This document shows, piece after piece, positions 33,569 through 39,999 of a stretch of DNA of 64,000 nucleotides. How positions within the stretch are numbered: position 1 is the first letter of the stretch; every line of letters starts with the position of its first letter. The translations under genes and the position numbers were made by a program. Below the pieces are notes generated by a model. That model had not been told where the DNA came from and made no database searches. It worked only from the letters and a program-made list of their open reading frames with translations. The stretch is from Alphaproteobacteria bacterium (GTDB lineage: Bacteria > Pseudomonadota > Alphaproteobacteria > TMED109), in the NCBI GenBank assembly GCA_022824395.1, contig JAJDZX010000113.1, positions 62,001 through 126,000 on the forward strand, in the 5' to 3' direction.

Positions 33569-35350
33569 TCACGCAGGCGGCAGGACCGTCCGCAGGTGGA
33601 CTTCCCGGAGTTGCTCGTCGGAGACCGGCCCCGGCGCCCCCATCAGCAGGTCTTCTGCCTGCTGGTTCAGCGGGAACGGAATCACTTCGCGGATGTTGGG
33701 TTCGTCGGCCAGCAGCATGACGATCCGGTCGATGCCGGGAGCGATGCCGCCGTGCGGCGGGGCCCCGTAGCGGAAAGCCTGCAGCAGGGCGGGAAACTGC
33801 GTTTCGAGTTCGTCGAGGCTGTAGCCCGCGATGGCGAACGCCCTGACCATGATGTCCGGCCGGTGGTTCCGGATGGCGCCCGACGAGAGCTCGACACCGT
33901 TACACACGATGTCGTACTGCCAGGCCAGGATGTCCTCGGGGTCGGTCGCCGTCTCCAGCGCCTCGAGGCCGCCCTGCGGCATCGAGAACGGATTGTGGCT
34001 GAACACGATCTTGCCGGTTTCCGCGTCTCGCTCGTACATGGGGAAATCCACGGTCCAGCAAAACCGGAACACGCTGTCGTCGATCAGCCCGAGTTCCTCG
34101 CCCAATTTGGTACGCGCCGTCCCCGCAAACGCGGCCGCGGGGACCGGCTGGTCACACACGAAGAACACCGCATCCCCGGGCCCGATCCCGACCGCGTCGC
34201 GGATCGCCGTTTCGGCCTCGGGCACCAGGAACTTGGCAATCGGCCCCTTGCCGCCTTCCTCGTCGAAGATCACGTAGCCAAGCCCGGCCGCTCCCTCGTC
34301 GCGGGCCCATCGGTTAAGCCCGTCGAAAAAGCTTCTGGGACGGGCGGCGGCGTTCGGCGCGGGAATGGCCCTGACGACCGCACCCTTCTCGATCTGGCTG
34401 CGGAACGCGCGAAACGTGACCCCCTCGAGTTCGAACGCGGCGGTGACGTCGGCAATTTCCAGCGGGTTTCGAAGGTCGGGCTTGTCGGTCCCGTAGCGCA
34501 GCATCGCGTCACGCCAGGCAATTCGCGGGAACGGTCCGTCCGCGACCGGCCGGCTGCCAAATTCGGCAAACACGTCGCGCAGGAGCGGCTCGACGGCATC
34601 GAACACATCCTCCTGCGTCGCGAACGCGAGCTCGACGTCCAGCTGATAGAACTCGCCGGGACTTCGGTCAGCCCGGGCATCCTCATCGCGAAAGCACGGC
34701 GCAATCTGGAAATAGCGGTCGACGCCGGACGTCATGAGCAACTGCTTGAACTGCTGGGGCGCCTGCGGCAGCGCGTAGAATCGGCCCGGGTGCAGGCGGC
34801 TCGGGACCAGGAAATCCCGCGCTCCTTCCGGTGAGGATGCGGTGAGGATCGGGGTCTGGATTTCGAGAAATCCCTGTTCCGTCATGCGCCGGCGGATCAT
34901 GGCGATGACATCGGCCCGGAGCCGCAGATTGCGCTGCATCTTCTCGCGTCGGAGGTCGAGAAAGCGATACGACAGACGAACCGATTCACCGGCTTCCTGC
35001 CCGCCCGCCACCTGCAACGGCAACGTCGCCGCGGGGGATTCGAGGTCGAACGTCCCGATCCGGACTTCGACTTCCCCCGTGGCCAGCGCAGCGTTCACCG
35101 TGTCCTCCGAACGGGCGACCACCGGACCGGTGACGGTCACCACGCTTTCGACCCGGACCGCTTCCACCGCGCTGAACAAGGGCGCGTCGCCGGCCACCAC
35201 GACCTGCGTCAGGCCGTAGTGGTCCCGCAGGTCCAGGAACAGGAGGCCGCCATGGTCACGTTTCGAGTGCACCCACCCTGACAGCCGCACGGTGGTGCCG
35301 ACGTGTCCGGCGCGGAGCTCGCCGCAATTGTGTGTCCGGTACGGATGCAT
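33569..35350 (-). CDS. aspS: Aspartyl-tRNA synthetase, bacterial type
   Basis: The enzyme charges tRNA-Asp, and in organisms lacking AsnRS also tRNA-Asn. The N-terminal anticodon-binding OB fold includes [11 protein letters not shown]. Class II motif 2 is [19 protein letters not shown], and motif 3 is [15 protein letters not shown] bacterial GAD insertion domain lies between them. At 593 residues it has full length. Non-discriminating activity is common in this class but cannot be read directly here. The normal neighbour rnd is displaced by three extra genes. Confidence 0.95.
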
Positions 35351-35453: not shown

Positions 35454-36653
35454 CTAGTTCATCCGGTGCCGTTCGGAACCGGAGCGGGGCGGGTGCGCGC
35501 GAACAGCTTCCTCGTTCACTTCCGTTCCCCAGCCGGGTTCGTCGGGAAGCACGAGCTTGCCGTCACGGATCTCCGGCACGGTGGTCACCAGGTCGTCCTT
35601 CCAGGGAATCTCGTCGATGTCGATTTCCATGATGCGGAAATTCGGGACGGTGGCCGAGAAGTGGGCACTGTGCAGTGTCGAGAGATGCCCGTAAAAGTTG
35701 TGCGGGGCAACGTTGATTTCGTACGCGTCTGCCATGGCCGCAATCTTGAGGCTCTCGGCGAGACCGTTCCAGACCACGTCGATGATGCTGACATCGACGG
35801 CGCGATGTTCGAAGAACGGCTTGAATTCCCGCCGGCCGTAGAGCGACTCGCACGAGGCGATCGGCGTGCTCACCGCCTCGCGGATGCCGGCCAGCGCCGG
35901 GCCATCGAAGAGGTCGATTTCGGCCCACATCAGATCCAGGTCGTCGAGCGCCCGGACGACTCGCCGGTAGCCTTCGGGCCGGTAGTTGAAGTTGAGGTCC
36001 ACGAGGATTTCGACGTCCGGTCCCGCGCCTGAACGGAAGGCCTCGACCTGGGCCCGGAGCGCGCGCTCGACCGCCAGGTCCGGGGAGAGCTCGGGGCTGT
36101 TCGCGCCCACGCCGAAGCCCGGCATGTACAAGCGCGGCCGCTCGCCGTCGAACAGGAAGATGTTCGTCTTGAGGGCGGTGAAACCCTCGGCGCGCACCCG
36201 GGCACCCAAGGCCTCGACATCGGCGAGATCGGTCAGGGGCGGCTGTCCGATCAGGTCCGCGTGCGCCATGAGATACGTGCCGCAGTGAGACCAGTAGAGG
36301 CGAAGCTCCTCGCGCACCGGGCCGCCGAATAGCTCGCAGACCCGGACTCCGAGGGCCCGCGCCTTGATATCGAGCAGGGCATTCTCGATGGCCGCGATGG
36401 CCTGCTGGTTGACGCCGCCGGGTGCTTGGCGGGTACGCGCGTACAGCATCGCGCTGTGCCGCTCGACCGGGCGCGGGTCCTGGCCCACCAGATGTTCGCC
36501 AAGCGCCCTGATGACCGCGCTGAGGCCGGCACTGCCGTAACTCTCGTTGAATTCCGACCAGCCGGTGATGCCCTCGTCGGTCGTGGCCTTCAGGAACGAC
36601 ATCACGCGCCACCCGCCGTCCGCGTGAAGAATCTCGAAACCGGTGAGCTTCAT
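35454..36653 (-). CDS. Enolase-superfamily enzyme, mandelate racemase/muconate-lactonising branch
   Basis: The enzyme should abstract a proton alpha to a carboxylate, as sugar-acid dehydratases and racemases do. Metal ligands are Asp219 (LVDLNFNY), Glu245 (WAEIDLF) and Glu269 (SCESLYG). Candidate acid/base residues are Lys162 (ALKTN) and His318 (APHNFYGHL). The capping domain occupies residues about 1-130. ATG 36653 gives 399 residues. The upstream TTG at 36671 is less likely. The substrate is unknown. The divergent YihU-like reductase two genes away suggests acid-sugar or sulfosugar metabolism. Confidence 0.82.
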
Positions 36654-36855
36654 GGCATTCAATCCGTCCAAAATGGGGGTTTCCTGCGGCCGTCCGCGGG
36701 CCTGCGTCCCGCACCGTCCGCCGGAATCATCCTACGTCATGGGTGGTGGCCTGACAGGCGGGGGACCGTCCCGGGGAACCGTCTCCGCATTCCATCAACG
36801 CCGGAGCGCGCGGGCGTACGCGGCCGCGATCGCACCAAGCCCCGGCCCGATCCGG

Positions 36856-37125
36856 TCAGAGACCCGGGATGATGCCGGCGTAGACCAGCATGGTGAAGAT
36901 CACGCAGATGCCGCCCACGACGCCGAGCACATCGCCGGCCCGCAGCATGACCATGCCGCGTTTCAGGATCCGATCCGCCTGCTCGAAGCCGGCCGCATCG
37001 TCCTCCCGCTCGGGGATCCGGAGACGTTGCAGCGTCGTTCTGCCGTAGAAGATCAGGATGAGCCCGACCGCGAGCGTCACACCACTGACGATGGCGAGAA
37101 TGTGCGGCTGGAGGATAGCTGTCAT
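36856..37125 (-). CDS. Small two-helix membrane protein, unknown function
   Basis: I do not recognise the family. The 89-residue product has a hydrophobic helix at about 8-27 (ILAIVSGVTLAVGLILIFYG), a central charged segment (REDDAAGFEQADRILKRG) and a second helix at about 65-87. No signal peptide cleavage site is visible, so it is likely an inner-membrane hairpin protein. The ATG at 37125 has no good ribosome site. The gene lies between the enolase-superfamily gene and the divergent reductase and may belong with the former. Confidence 0.55.
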   Translation of the reverse strand: MTAILQPHILAIVSGVTLAVGLILIFYGRTTLQRLRIPEREDDAAGFEQADRILKRGMVMLRAGDVLGVVGGICVIFTMLVYAGIIPGL

Positions 37126-37353
37126 GGCGTGTTTCCGGACGACCCGTCGCGCGCAACTGCGCAACCGTAATCTTAGGGAGTTATCGCACGGCGGCGGGGG
37201 CGCGCCAAGCGACGCGAACGCGTCCGCGGGCCGTGCGGTGCAGCGCCGTCCGGGCCGCCGCGCGCTCCGGGACGATGGCGAACCGGCAGCGCAGCAGACG
37301 GGCCCATCGTCTACCCTGCGCGACGCACGGAAGACTGCTCGGGAGGAACTGGC

Positions 37354-38268
37354 ATGGACCGGATCGGATTCGTGGGACTGGGGCGGATGGGCCGCCCAAT
37401 GGCCTCCAACCTGCAACGCAAGGGTTTCGACCTCGTCGTCTATGACATCAATCGCGCCCCCTGCGACGCGCTTGCGGAGCTGGGCGCCACGGTTGCCGAC
37501 TCTGTCGCCGGAGTGGCGAGGGAGGCGCCGACCATCTTCACCTGCCTGCCATCACACGTTGAGGTGGAAGCCGTGCTTCTCGGGGCAGAAGGTCTGATCG
37601 CACACGCCAAGCCCGGTACCACCGTCGTCGAAATGAGCACCATCGATCCGGAAGTGACGGACCGGTGCGCGCAAGGACTGGCCGCGGCCGGCATGCACTG
37701 CGTCGACGCTCCGATCGGCCGTCTCGCGAGTCACGCGGATGCCGGCGAGAGTCTCTTCATGGTCGGTGCCGAGGAGGCGGAGTTCCGCGCCATCCGACCC
37801 ATGCTCGAAGCCATGGGTACGTCGATCCATCACTGCGGTCCGGTCGGTACCGGCATCCGTACCAAGCTGGTCAACAATTATCTGGCCATCACCCTCTGCC
37901 AGGCTAATGCCGAGGCGCTGGCGCTCACCCGCCGCTTCGGGCTGGATCTGGAACGCACCCTTGAGGTCCTCCACGGCACCACCGCCACCAACGGCCAGCT
38001 CAAGATCAACTACGCCACCAAGGTGCTCACGGGCGATATCGCGCCGGGGTTCCAGATCGATCTCGCCCACAAGGATCTGTCGCTTGTCACGCAGGCTGCC
38101 AATGCCAGCCGGGTGCCGATGCCGGTTGCCGCGGCCGCGCGCGAATGCCTCAGCCTGGCCCGGGCGCGCGGCTGGGGCGGTTACGATTTTTCGGCGCTGC
38201 TCGATGCGCTCTGCGAGAGCGCCGGTATCGAACAGGTTCGCTTCTCCGCCGCCGACGGCGCAGACTGA
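37354..38268 (+). CDS. Beta-hydroxyacid dehydrogenase, sulfolactaldehyde reductase (YihU)-like
   Basis: This NAD(H)-dependent reductase has a Rossmann motif (GFVGLGRMGRPMASNL) and the all-helical second domain. Its substrate residues follow those I recall for E. coli YihU, which reduces 3-sulfolactaldehyde: Arg123 in DAPIGR, catalytic Lys171 in GIRTKLVNN and Asn174. Most relatives that use hydroxyisobutyrate have GG instead of the GR pair. The later IDLAHKDL segment also matches YihU. A GGAGGAACTGGC ribosome site precedes the ATG. No sulfoglycolytic aldolase, kinase or sulfonate transporter gene is in the window. Confidence 0.8.
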   Translation: MDRIGFVGLGRMGRPMASNLQRKGFDLVVYDINRAPCDALAELGATVADSVAGVAREAPTIFTCLPSHVEVEAVLLGAEGLIAHAKPGTTVVEMSTIDPEVTDRCAQGLAAAGMHCVDAPIGRLASHADAGESLFMVGAEEAEFRAIRPMLEAMGTSIHHCGPVGTGIRTKLVNNYLAITLCQANAEALALTRRFGLDLERTLEVLHGTTATNGQLKINYATKVLTGDIAPGFQIDLAHKDLSLVTQAANASRVPMPVAAAARECLSLARARGWGGYDFSALLDALCESAGIEQVRFSAADGAD

Positions 38269-38811: not shown

Positions 38812-39999
38812 TTGAGGGCACGGGGCGGCCAGCCGCGCGCCGCAGTCCCGGAATCGCTGATCACCGAGACGGCCGCCCTCAAGCGTCTCTGCGATCGCCT
38901 CGCCGATGAGCCGTTCGTCTGCATCGACACCGAATTCCTGAGCGGCCAGACGTTCTGGCCGAAACTTTGCCTGGTTCAGATTGCCGGCCCGGATGGCCAA
39001 GGGCACGCGGTGGATACCCTGGCCGAACTGGACCTTGACCCGCTCTATCGCCTCCTCAACGAGGCGCCGCCGATCAAGGTGTTTCATGCCTGCCGGCAGG
39101 ACGTGGGGATCTTCTTTCTGGCCAGTGGCCTCGTGCCGACCCCGTTGTTCGATACCCAGGTGGCCGCGATGGCATGCGGCTACGGAGAAGCGGTCAGCTA
39201 CGCGAATCTGGTGCACGCCATTGCGGACGCGACGATCAGCAAGGCAGACCGCTATACGGATTGGTCGCGCCGGCCGCTCTCGCCGGCCCAGCTCGCCTAC
39301 GCGCTCGCGGACGTGACCCACCTCCCGGCCATTTACCGCAAGCTTTCCGGTCAGCTTGATGCCACGGACCGCTGGGAGTGGCTGGACGAGGAGATGGAGA
39401 CGCTGACAGATCCAGACTCGTACCGACTGCAGCCCGAAGAGGCCTGGCGGCGGACCAAGCTCCCGCCGCTCCCGCCACGGCAACAACTCATCGCCCAGTT
39501 TCTGGCCGCCGCCCGGGAAGAGATGGCCAGAAAGGCCGACCGGCCGCGCCGCTGGATCTTGTCGGACGAGGCACTGGTCCAGATTGCCCGGGCCGCTCCC
39601 GCCAGCGCGGGGGAATTGGCCGAGATCCGGGGAGTTTCCGACACGGTTGCCCGCGGCAGGACCGGGAGTCGGATGCTGGCAGCGGTGCGGGAAGGAGTCG
39701 CAGCACCGCTCCCGAAGGCCGAAAGCCGTCCCAAGTCCCGGCACAAGTCGCCGGCTGCCGCCGTGCTCCTCCGGGCGCTCCTTCGCCAGGTGGCGGCCGA
39801 GCACGGCATCGCGTCGAAACTGCTGGCAAGCACGGAGGAGCTTGACCGCATGGCCGCCGGCGATCGGGATATGCCGGCGTTTCGGGGCTGGCGCAACCGG
39901 GTCTTCGGGCAGCGGGCGGCCGCCCTCTGCGAAGGGCGGATCGCGCTGGGCGTGGATGGCGGCAAGTTGCGCGAGATCCCGGTTGACGATCCCGGCTAG
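38812..39999 (+). CDS. rnd: Ribonuclease D
   Basis: RNase D trims the 3' ends of tRNA precursors. The DEDD exonuclease domain includes CIDTEFLSGQTFWPKLCLVQ, read in parts, HACRQDVGIFF and the YALADVTHL motif with the fourth acid. Two HRDC-like helical domains fill the rest. The true start is uncertain. The homologous part begins at LITETAALKRL, and the nearest upstream standard start in frame is TTG 38812. Its stop TAG overlaps the opposing ppx stop by two bases. Confidence 0.85.
   Translation: MRARGGQPRAAVPESLITETAALKRLCDRLADEPFVCIDTEFLSGQTFWPKLCLVQIAGPDGQGHAVDTLAELDLDPLYRLLNEAPPIKVFHACRQDVGIFFLASGLVPTPLFDTQVAAMACGYGEAVSYANLVHAIADATISKADRYTDWSRRPLSPAQLAYALADVTHLPAIYRKLSGQLDATDRWEWLDEEMETLTDPDSYRLQPEEAWRRTKLPPLPPRQQLIAQFLAAAREEMARKADRPRRWILSDEALVQIARAAPASAGELAEIRGVSDTVARGRTGSRMLAAVREGVAAPLPKAESRPKSRHKSPAAAVLLRALLRQVAAEHGIASKLLASTEELDRMAAGDRDMPAFRGWRNRVFGQRAAALCEGRIALGVDGGKLREIPVDDPG

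Follow-up and report, generated by a model that had tools for sequence, protein, structure and literature searches.

A YihU-related reductase and a probable sugar-acid dehydratase in a genus-specific insertion between aspS and rnd of an uncultivated alphaproteobacterium

Introduction

Among the beta-hydroxyacid dehydrogenases (beta-HADs), the sulfolactaldehyde (SLA) reductase YihU of E. coli (6sm7/6smy/6smz) belongs to the yih operon, and its substrate sulfonate is, as we assume, held by Arg123, Asn174 and residue 178. The tartronate semialdehyde reductases GarR and GlxR share the superfamily and the catalytic lysine, and carry GG, not GR, in the substrate loop and Q in place of N175. Further members are a 2-(hydroxymethyl)glutarate dehydrogenase (3cky) and the succinic semialdehyde reductases of Geobacter and plants (3pdu, 3pef, GLYR), whose substrates are omega-carboxylate aldehydes. 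Citations of Saito 2009 (PMC4460296, PMC12104201) present YihU itself as a hydroxybutyrate dehydrogenase that takes part in the metabolism of succinic semialdehyde. On that report as cited, the Arg123 pocket can accept a carboxylate, and a sulfonate is not required.

Here we analyse 64,000 nt of DNA (the window) from Alphaproteobacteria bacterium (TMED109; GCA_022824395.1, contig JAJDZX010000113.1, 62,001-126,000 of the forward strand), in which a YihU-like reductase and an enolase-superfamily enzyme lie between aspS and rnd. A preliminary description of this stretch had proposed, from residues shared with YihU, that the two enzymes could form part of a route for a sulfosugar or sulfo-acid. 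Our analysis favours a different explanation, to which we give a probability of about 0.52: two unconnected catabolic genes, one for the reductase of a carboxylate semialdehyde and one for the dehydratase of a sugar acid, would have come to lie in a genus-specific insertion between aspS and rnd. The chemistry and substrates that we propose for both enzymes are deduced from their observed residues, clade, neighbours and insertion.

Materials and methods

Homologues of the reductase were sought in 84,980 species genomes and plasmids, and residue positions were compared between 70 members of the window clade and 14 members of the YihU clade. Gene neighbours were surveyed within 2.5 kb of 70 window-clade loci outside the genus, using codon-based calling of open reading frames. 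The search for sulfonate genes in the genus was confined to YihS/YihT, Xsc, SuyAB and HpsN.

Results and discussion

A genus-specific block between aspS and rnd

The features of the block are collected in Table 1. In eight sister-genus genomes of the same family, aspS stands directly beside rnd with nothing between them, while all seven genomes of the window's genus carry an insert at this point, which bears out the earlier observation that the enolase and reductase interrupt the aspS-rnd neighbourhood. All seven share the gene order prpE, Bax-inhibitor-like gene, aspS, enolase, small gene, reductase, and rnd and ppx come after the reductase wherever the available stretch extends that far. Several sister-genus genomes encode the enolase elsewhere (55-56% identity), beside a second enolase-superfamily gene, and no reductase was found in these genomes at the threshold used. 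The interpretation that fits these comparisons best is that the block was inserted in an ancestor common to the genus.

Table 1. Genes of the inserted block and its borders in the window
Feature	Position	Strand	Remarks
aspS, bordering the block on the left	33569..35350	-	Directly beside rnd in eight sister-genus genomes
Enolase superfamily, mandelate racemase type, probable sugar-acid dehydratase	35454..36653	-	399 aa; PF02746 and PF13378
Small conserved hydrophobic gene between enolase and reductase	36859..37125	-	About 88 aa
Reductase, 3-hydroxyisobutyrate dehydrogenase (beta-hydroxyacid dehydrogenase) superfamily	37354..38268	+	304 aa; PF03446 and PF14833
Gap between reductase and rnd	38269..38811		Extra gene here in four of the genus genomes sampled, not in the window
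rnd (ribonuclease D), bordering the block on the right	38812..39999	+	Directly beside aspS in eight sister-genus genomes

The small gene is 82-100% identical across the other genomes of the genus, and a Pfam search with it gave no match. The extra gene found between reductase and rnd in four sampled genomes (L033:11194-12231; L032, L034, L044) is saccharopine-dehydrogenase-like (about 350 aa, PF03435); it is missing from this position in the window and in its closest relative (L031).

The enolase-superfamily enzyme

The open reading frame of the enolase spans 35454-36671 on the minus strand with a TTG start, and the ATG at 36653 gives the 399-residue protein used for numbering. In this numbering the metal ligands named in the preliminary description, Asp219, Glu245 and Glu269, are present and of the dehydratase type, together with K162 and a D292/H318 pair. 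With both PF02746 and PF13378 and three acidic metal ligands, the protein falls into the mandelate-racemase subgroup. Its best PDB match is the group 2oo6/3go2/3sn0/3sn1/3sn4 (450 bits over 390 residues), in which the metal ligands occupy the same positions. The entry names of this group ('putative L-alanine-DL-glutamate epimerase') assign no function, which leaves the enolase with no close relative that is characterised and counts against a firm assignment. The genes around members of the enolase group point towards sugar acids and away from dipeptide epimers. The enolase exceeded the equivalog cut-off for no known acid sugar, the best score being that for galactonate dehydratase (164 bits against a cut-off of 311).

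Homologues with 48-56% identity adjoin genes for a GMC oxidoreductase, an SMP-30 lactonase and a D-2-hydroxyacid dehydrogenase (L129). The Hoeflea homologue is accompanied by a sugar ABC transporter and a GMC oxidoreductase, and that of Ponticoccus by 5-dehydro-4-deoxyglucarate dehydratase and a peptide-type ABC transporter. Such surroundings are those of non-phosphorylative sugar-acid catabolism. We take the enolase to be a probable sugar-acid dehydratase, which would most likely convert a sugar acid to a 2-keto-3-deoxy acid.

The presence of enolase and reductase together in 7/7 genomes of the genus invites the idea of one sugar-acid pathway, in which an HpcH/HpaI aldolase from another locus would cleave the dehydrated acid and the reductase would then reduce the resulting aldehyde, as in GarD-GarL-GarR on galactarate. 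Elsewhere the genome does hold a GarL/HpaI-like aldolase, a second enolase-superfamily enzyme, a galactarate-dehydratase-like protein and a 2,4-didehydro-3-deoxy-rhamnonate hydrolase, and HpcH/HpaI aldolases lie close to the two nearest reductases outside the genus. However, enolase and reductase are divergently transcribed and so do not form one operon, the enolase is retained in sister genera where no reductase was found, and the reductase falls outside the GarR/GlxR group. In addition, at none of the 70 reductase loci outside the genus did tblastn detect an enolase homologue of this group; any link between the two enzymes is thus confined to the genus. As they are paired only in this genus, a common pathway is unsupported, and we regard it as rather doubtful.

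A separate observation concerns sister genera with small genomes of about 30% GC (L123-L128), where two different enolase-superfamily genes stand in tandem beside a gamma-glutamyltransferase-like gene.

The reductase belongs to a clade apart from YihU and GarR

The reductase carries G122, R123, K171 and N174, and Arg123, Lys171 and Asn174 are indeed at the YihU positions, as had been reported for it. It further resembles YihU in superfamily, length, R169, N175 and the HKD motif. Among solved structures, a PDB search ranked E. coli YihU first (6sm7, 216 bits) and 2-(hydroxymethyl)glutarate dehydrogenase second (3cky, 179 bits), the latter with no Arg aligned to position 123; tartronate semialdehyde reductase was more distant (153 bits). 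The Geobacter and plant enzymes 3pdu, 3pef and GLYR, like 3cky, share the superfamily at lower similarity. Identity is 40% to YihU and 34% to GarR and GlxR. The score of the NCBIfam SLA reductase model PRK15461 (278 bits) lies below its cut-off of 348, and that of the tartronate semialdehyde reductase model TIGR01505 (226 bits) below its cut-off of 340.75.

Our scan returned relatives with 46-97% identity from alpha-, beta- and gammaproteobacteria; for YihU proper the identity was 40-46%. In the tree, YihU forms a clade of 14 rows (support 100) and the window reductase lies in another, of 77 rows (support 85), which also stands apart from GarR, GlxR, YgbJ and the genome's own paralogues. The proposed kinship with YihU therefore survives in part: YihU, and not tartronate semialdehyde reductase, is the nearest characterised relative, but the reductase lies outside the YihU clade. 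Clustering with tartronate semialdehyde reductases, the placement named earlier as refuting the proposal, was not found. Membership of YihU is ruled out by the tree, the PRK15461 score and the neighbourhood, and membership of GarR/GlxR by the tree, the TIGR01505 score and a GRL loop instead of SGG.

Every window-clade member found by the scan has Arg123, Lys171 and Asn174. These residues are thus a trait of the clade, and GR in place of GG is not peculiar to the window gene. The statement that most homologues have GG at 122-123 holds for the distant family (GarR, GlxR, YgbJ and most of the genome's own paralogues) but not for the clade of the reductase itself, whose roughly 77 sequences all have G122-R123. 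What does separate the clades is a set of positions fixed or nearly fixed differently (window clade/YihU clade): 124 L/T, 125 A/S, 178 A/S, 182 C/N, 213 N/K, 215 Q/H and 232 G/A, corresponding to T124L, S125A, S178A, N182C, K213N, H215Q and A232G from YihU to the window reductase. Several of these share the loop of Arg123 or sit a single helical turn away from Asn174.

One genome with a GR-type enzyme also encodes a further, distant beta-HAD whose substrate loop is GRT (L097:4863-5759).

Sulfonate-pathway genes

The reductase might still act, in either direction, on a sulfonated aldehyde, be it 3-sulfolactaldehyde or the sulfoacetaldehyde released by a ComDE-like decarboxylase. R123, R169, K171, N174 and N175 are common to it and YihU, its closest characterised relative. 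DhpA, a DHPS dehydrogenase and beta-HAD with only 27% identity to YihU, shows that enzymes far from YihU can use DHPS (PMC6278857), and sequence alone therefore cannot close this reading. Against it stand the clade differences at positions 124, 125, 178, 182, 213, 215 and 232, and the gene context: yih genes were present at 13/13 fetched YihU-clade loci and at none of the window-clade loci.

The genes of the genus tell against a sulfonate substrate as well. The genome search suggested in the preliminary description gave no YihS or YihT in the seven genus genomes, whereas two positive-control genomes matched at E < 1e-160, and no protein of the genus scored above the Xsc model cut-off. The sole GD_AH protein, considered as SuyB, is a fused galactarate-dehydratase-like enzyme, and the genus is without SuyAB. 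For the second histidinol-dehydrogenase-family protein of the genome the best match is the DHPS dehydrogenase HpsN (377 bits vs 287 for HisD). HpsN has the motif GRY[A/S]H, whose His binds the sulfonate (PMC11382572); the protein has GKYPM at this place, and we rejected its identity as HpsN.

Placement outside the YihU clade, differing pocket-adjacent positions, no sulfoglycolysis gene near the clade and a genus lacking YihS/YihT, Xsc and SuyAB together leave the sulfosugar or sulfo-acid route unsupported, as the shared residues mark a larger clade without sulfoglycolysis. A sulfonated substrate for the reductase seems to us unlikely.

The HpsN-like gene belongs to a cluster elsewhere in the same genome (L208:2710-12250) with a second enolase-superfamily enzyme, two SDRs, a PdxA-like and an RraA-like protein, an HpaI/GarL-like aldolase and a D-2-hydroxyacid dehydrogenase. 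This cluster is a candidate acid-sugar or hydroxy-acid route.

Neighbours of the reductase clade

A ThDP-dependent 2-oxoacid decarboxylase and/or an aldehyde dehydrogenase was found at 30 of the 70 non-genus loci, with about 40 having neither. At 20 of the 70 there is a ComDE-like gene pair, whose best matches are the alpha and beta subunits of sulfopyruvate decarboxylase, both below the model cut-offs. The pair is placed upstream of, downstream of or divergent to the reductase, and its hosts include Burkholderiales, Methylobacterium, Roseomonas, Bosea, Paracoccus and others. By a rough estimate, with few ComDE pairs per several-Mb genome, about no such linkage would be expected by chance. Based on the three gene orders across proteobacteria, the linkage looks selected, not inherited as a block. 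Recurrent pairs of ComDE-like genes and a GR-type reductase can be seen at L037, L039, L061, L064, L076, L079, L091, L111, L112 and other loci.

An aldehyde dehydrogenase adjoins the reductase at 13 loci, and these enzymes mostly score best as 2,5-dioxovalerate, alpha-ketoglutarate-semialdehyde or succinate-semialdehyde dehydrogenases. Four Bosea-type loci have, in a row, a semialdehyde dehydrogenase, the reductase and a 2-oxoglutarate dehydrogenase E1-like protein that exceeds the cut-offs of both the E1 and the oxoglutarate decarboxylase models; the aldehyde expected there would be succinate semialdehyde. The common theme of the clade's loci could be that a ThDP enzyme makes an omega-anionic aldehyde from a 2-oxo acid, which one enzyme oxidises and another reduces. 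In the window's genus no decarboxylase was found beside the reductase, and its ComDE-like genes lie elsewhere.

A general detoxifying aldehyde reductase with no dedicated pathway, as proposed for plant GLYR1/2, would sit well with the unrelated neighbours at many clade loci and with the reduction of glyoxylate and succinic semialdehyde by related enzymes (PMC5399074, PMC5558127). The recurrence of decarboxylase or aldehyde dehydrogenase linkage at 30/70 loci speaks against this, and we find it very improbable.

Taken as a whole, the clade's neighbours point to an omega-carboxylate semialdehyde reductase, with a sulfonate less likely. What runs counter to this is that the ComDE-like subunits fit the sulfopyruvate decarboxylase models best, which keeps a sulfonate substrate in view, and that, at one Methylobacterium locus, there is in addition an Ldh2-family gene with a distant resemblance to sulfolactate dehydrogenase. 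Taken to its end, this line would make the clade an undescribed module of ComDE-like decarboxylase and GR-type reductase in soil and marine proteobacteria, running from sulfopyruvate through sulfoacetaldehyde to isethionate (or in reverse for DHPS/sulfolactaldehyde) without Xsc; the window reductase would be a member that has become separated from the module and continues to use a C2/C3 sulfonate. We consider this speculative and quite improbable.

Under the favoured explanation, a carboxylate-semialdehyde reductase unconnected to the dehydratase, the enzyme would be an NAD(P)H-dependent member of the beta-hydroxyacid dehydrogenase clade. Lys171 would be the catalytic residue, by analogy with the family, and Arg123 and Asn174 are predicted to hold a short aldehyde by its distal anionic group. 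The substrate would most likely be a carboxylate semialdehyde of the succinate-, malonate- or tartronate-semialdehyde type, interconverted with its hydroxy acid.

The finding, a pair of uncharacterised catabolic enzymes from a single uncultivated alphaproteobacterial genus, is a modest one. It does carry a caution: a sulfolactaldehyde reductase cannot be recognised by Arg123, Lys171 and Asn174 alone, because the trio is fixed in a larger clade without a sulfoglycolysis context. While the enzyme pair itself is uncharacterised but ordinary, the ComDE-reductase linkage is an interesting by-product, and the clade's repeated linkage to ThDP 2-oxoacid decarboxylases offers a testable handle on the substrate of the enzyme family.

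All seven genus genomes also hold a ComDE-like pair of another subfamily, placed directly before panC (L185:8526-10531 in the window's own genome). We considered it as a partner of the reductase and rejected it, since it belongs to that other subfamily, adjoins panC and is widespread without the reductase. This panC-linked pair might supply or use a pantothenate precursor.
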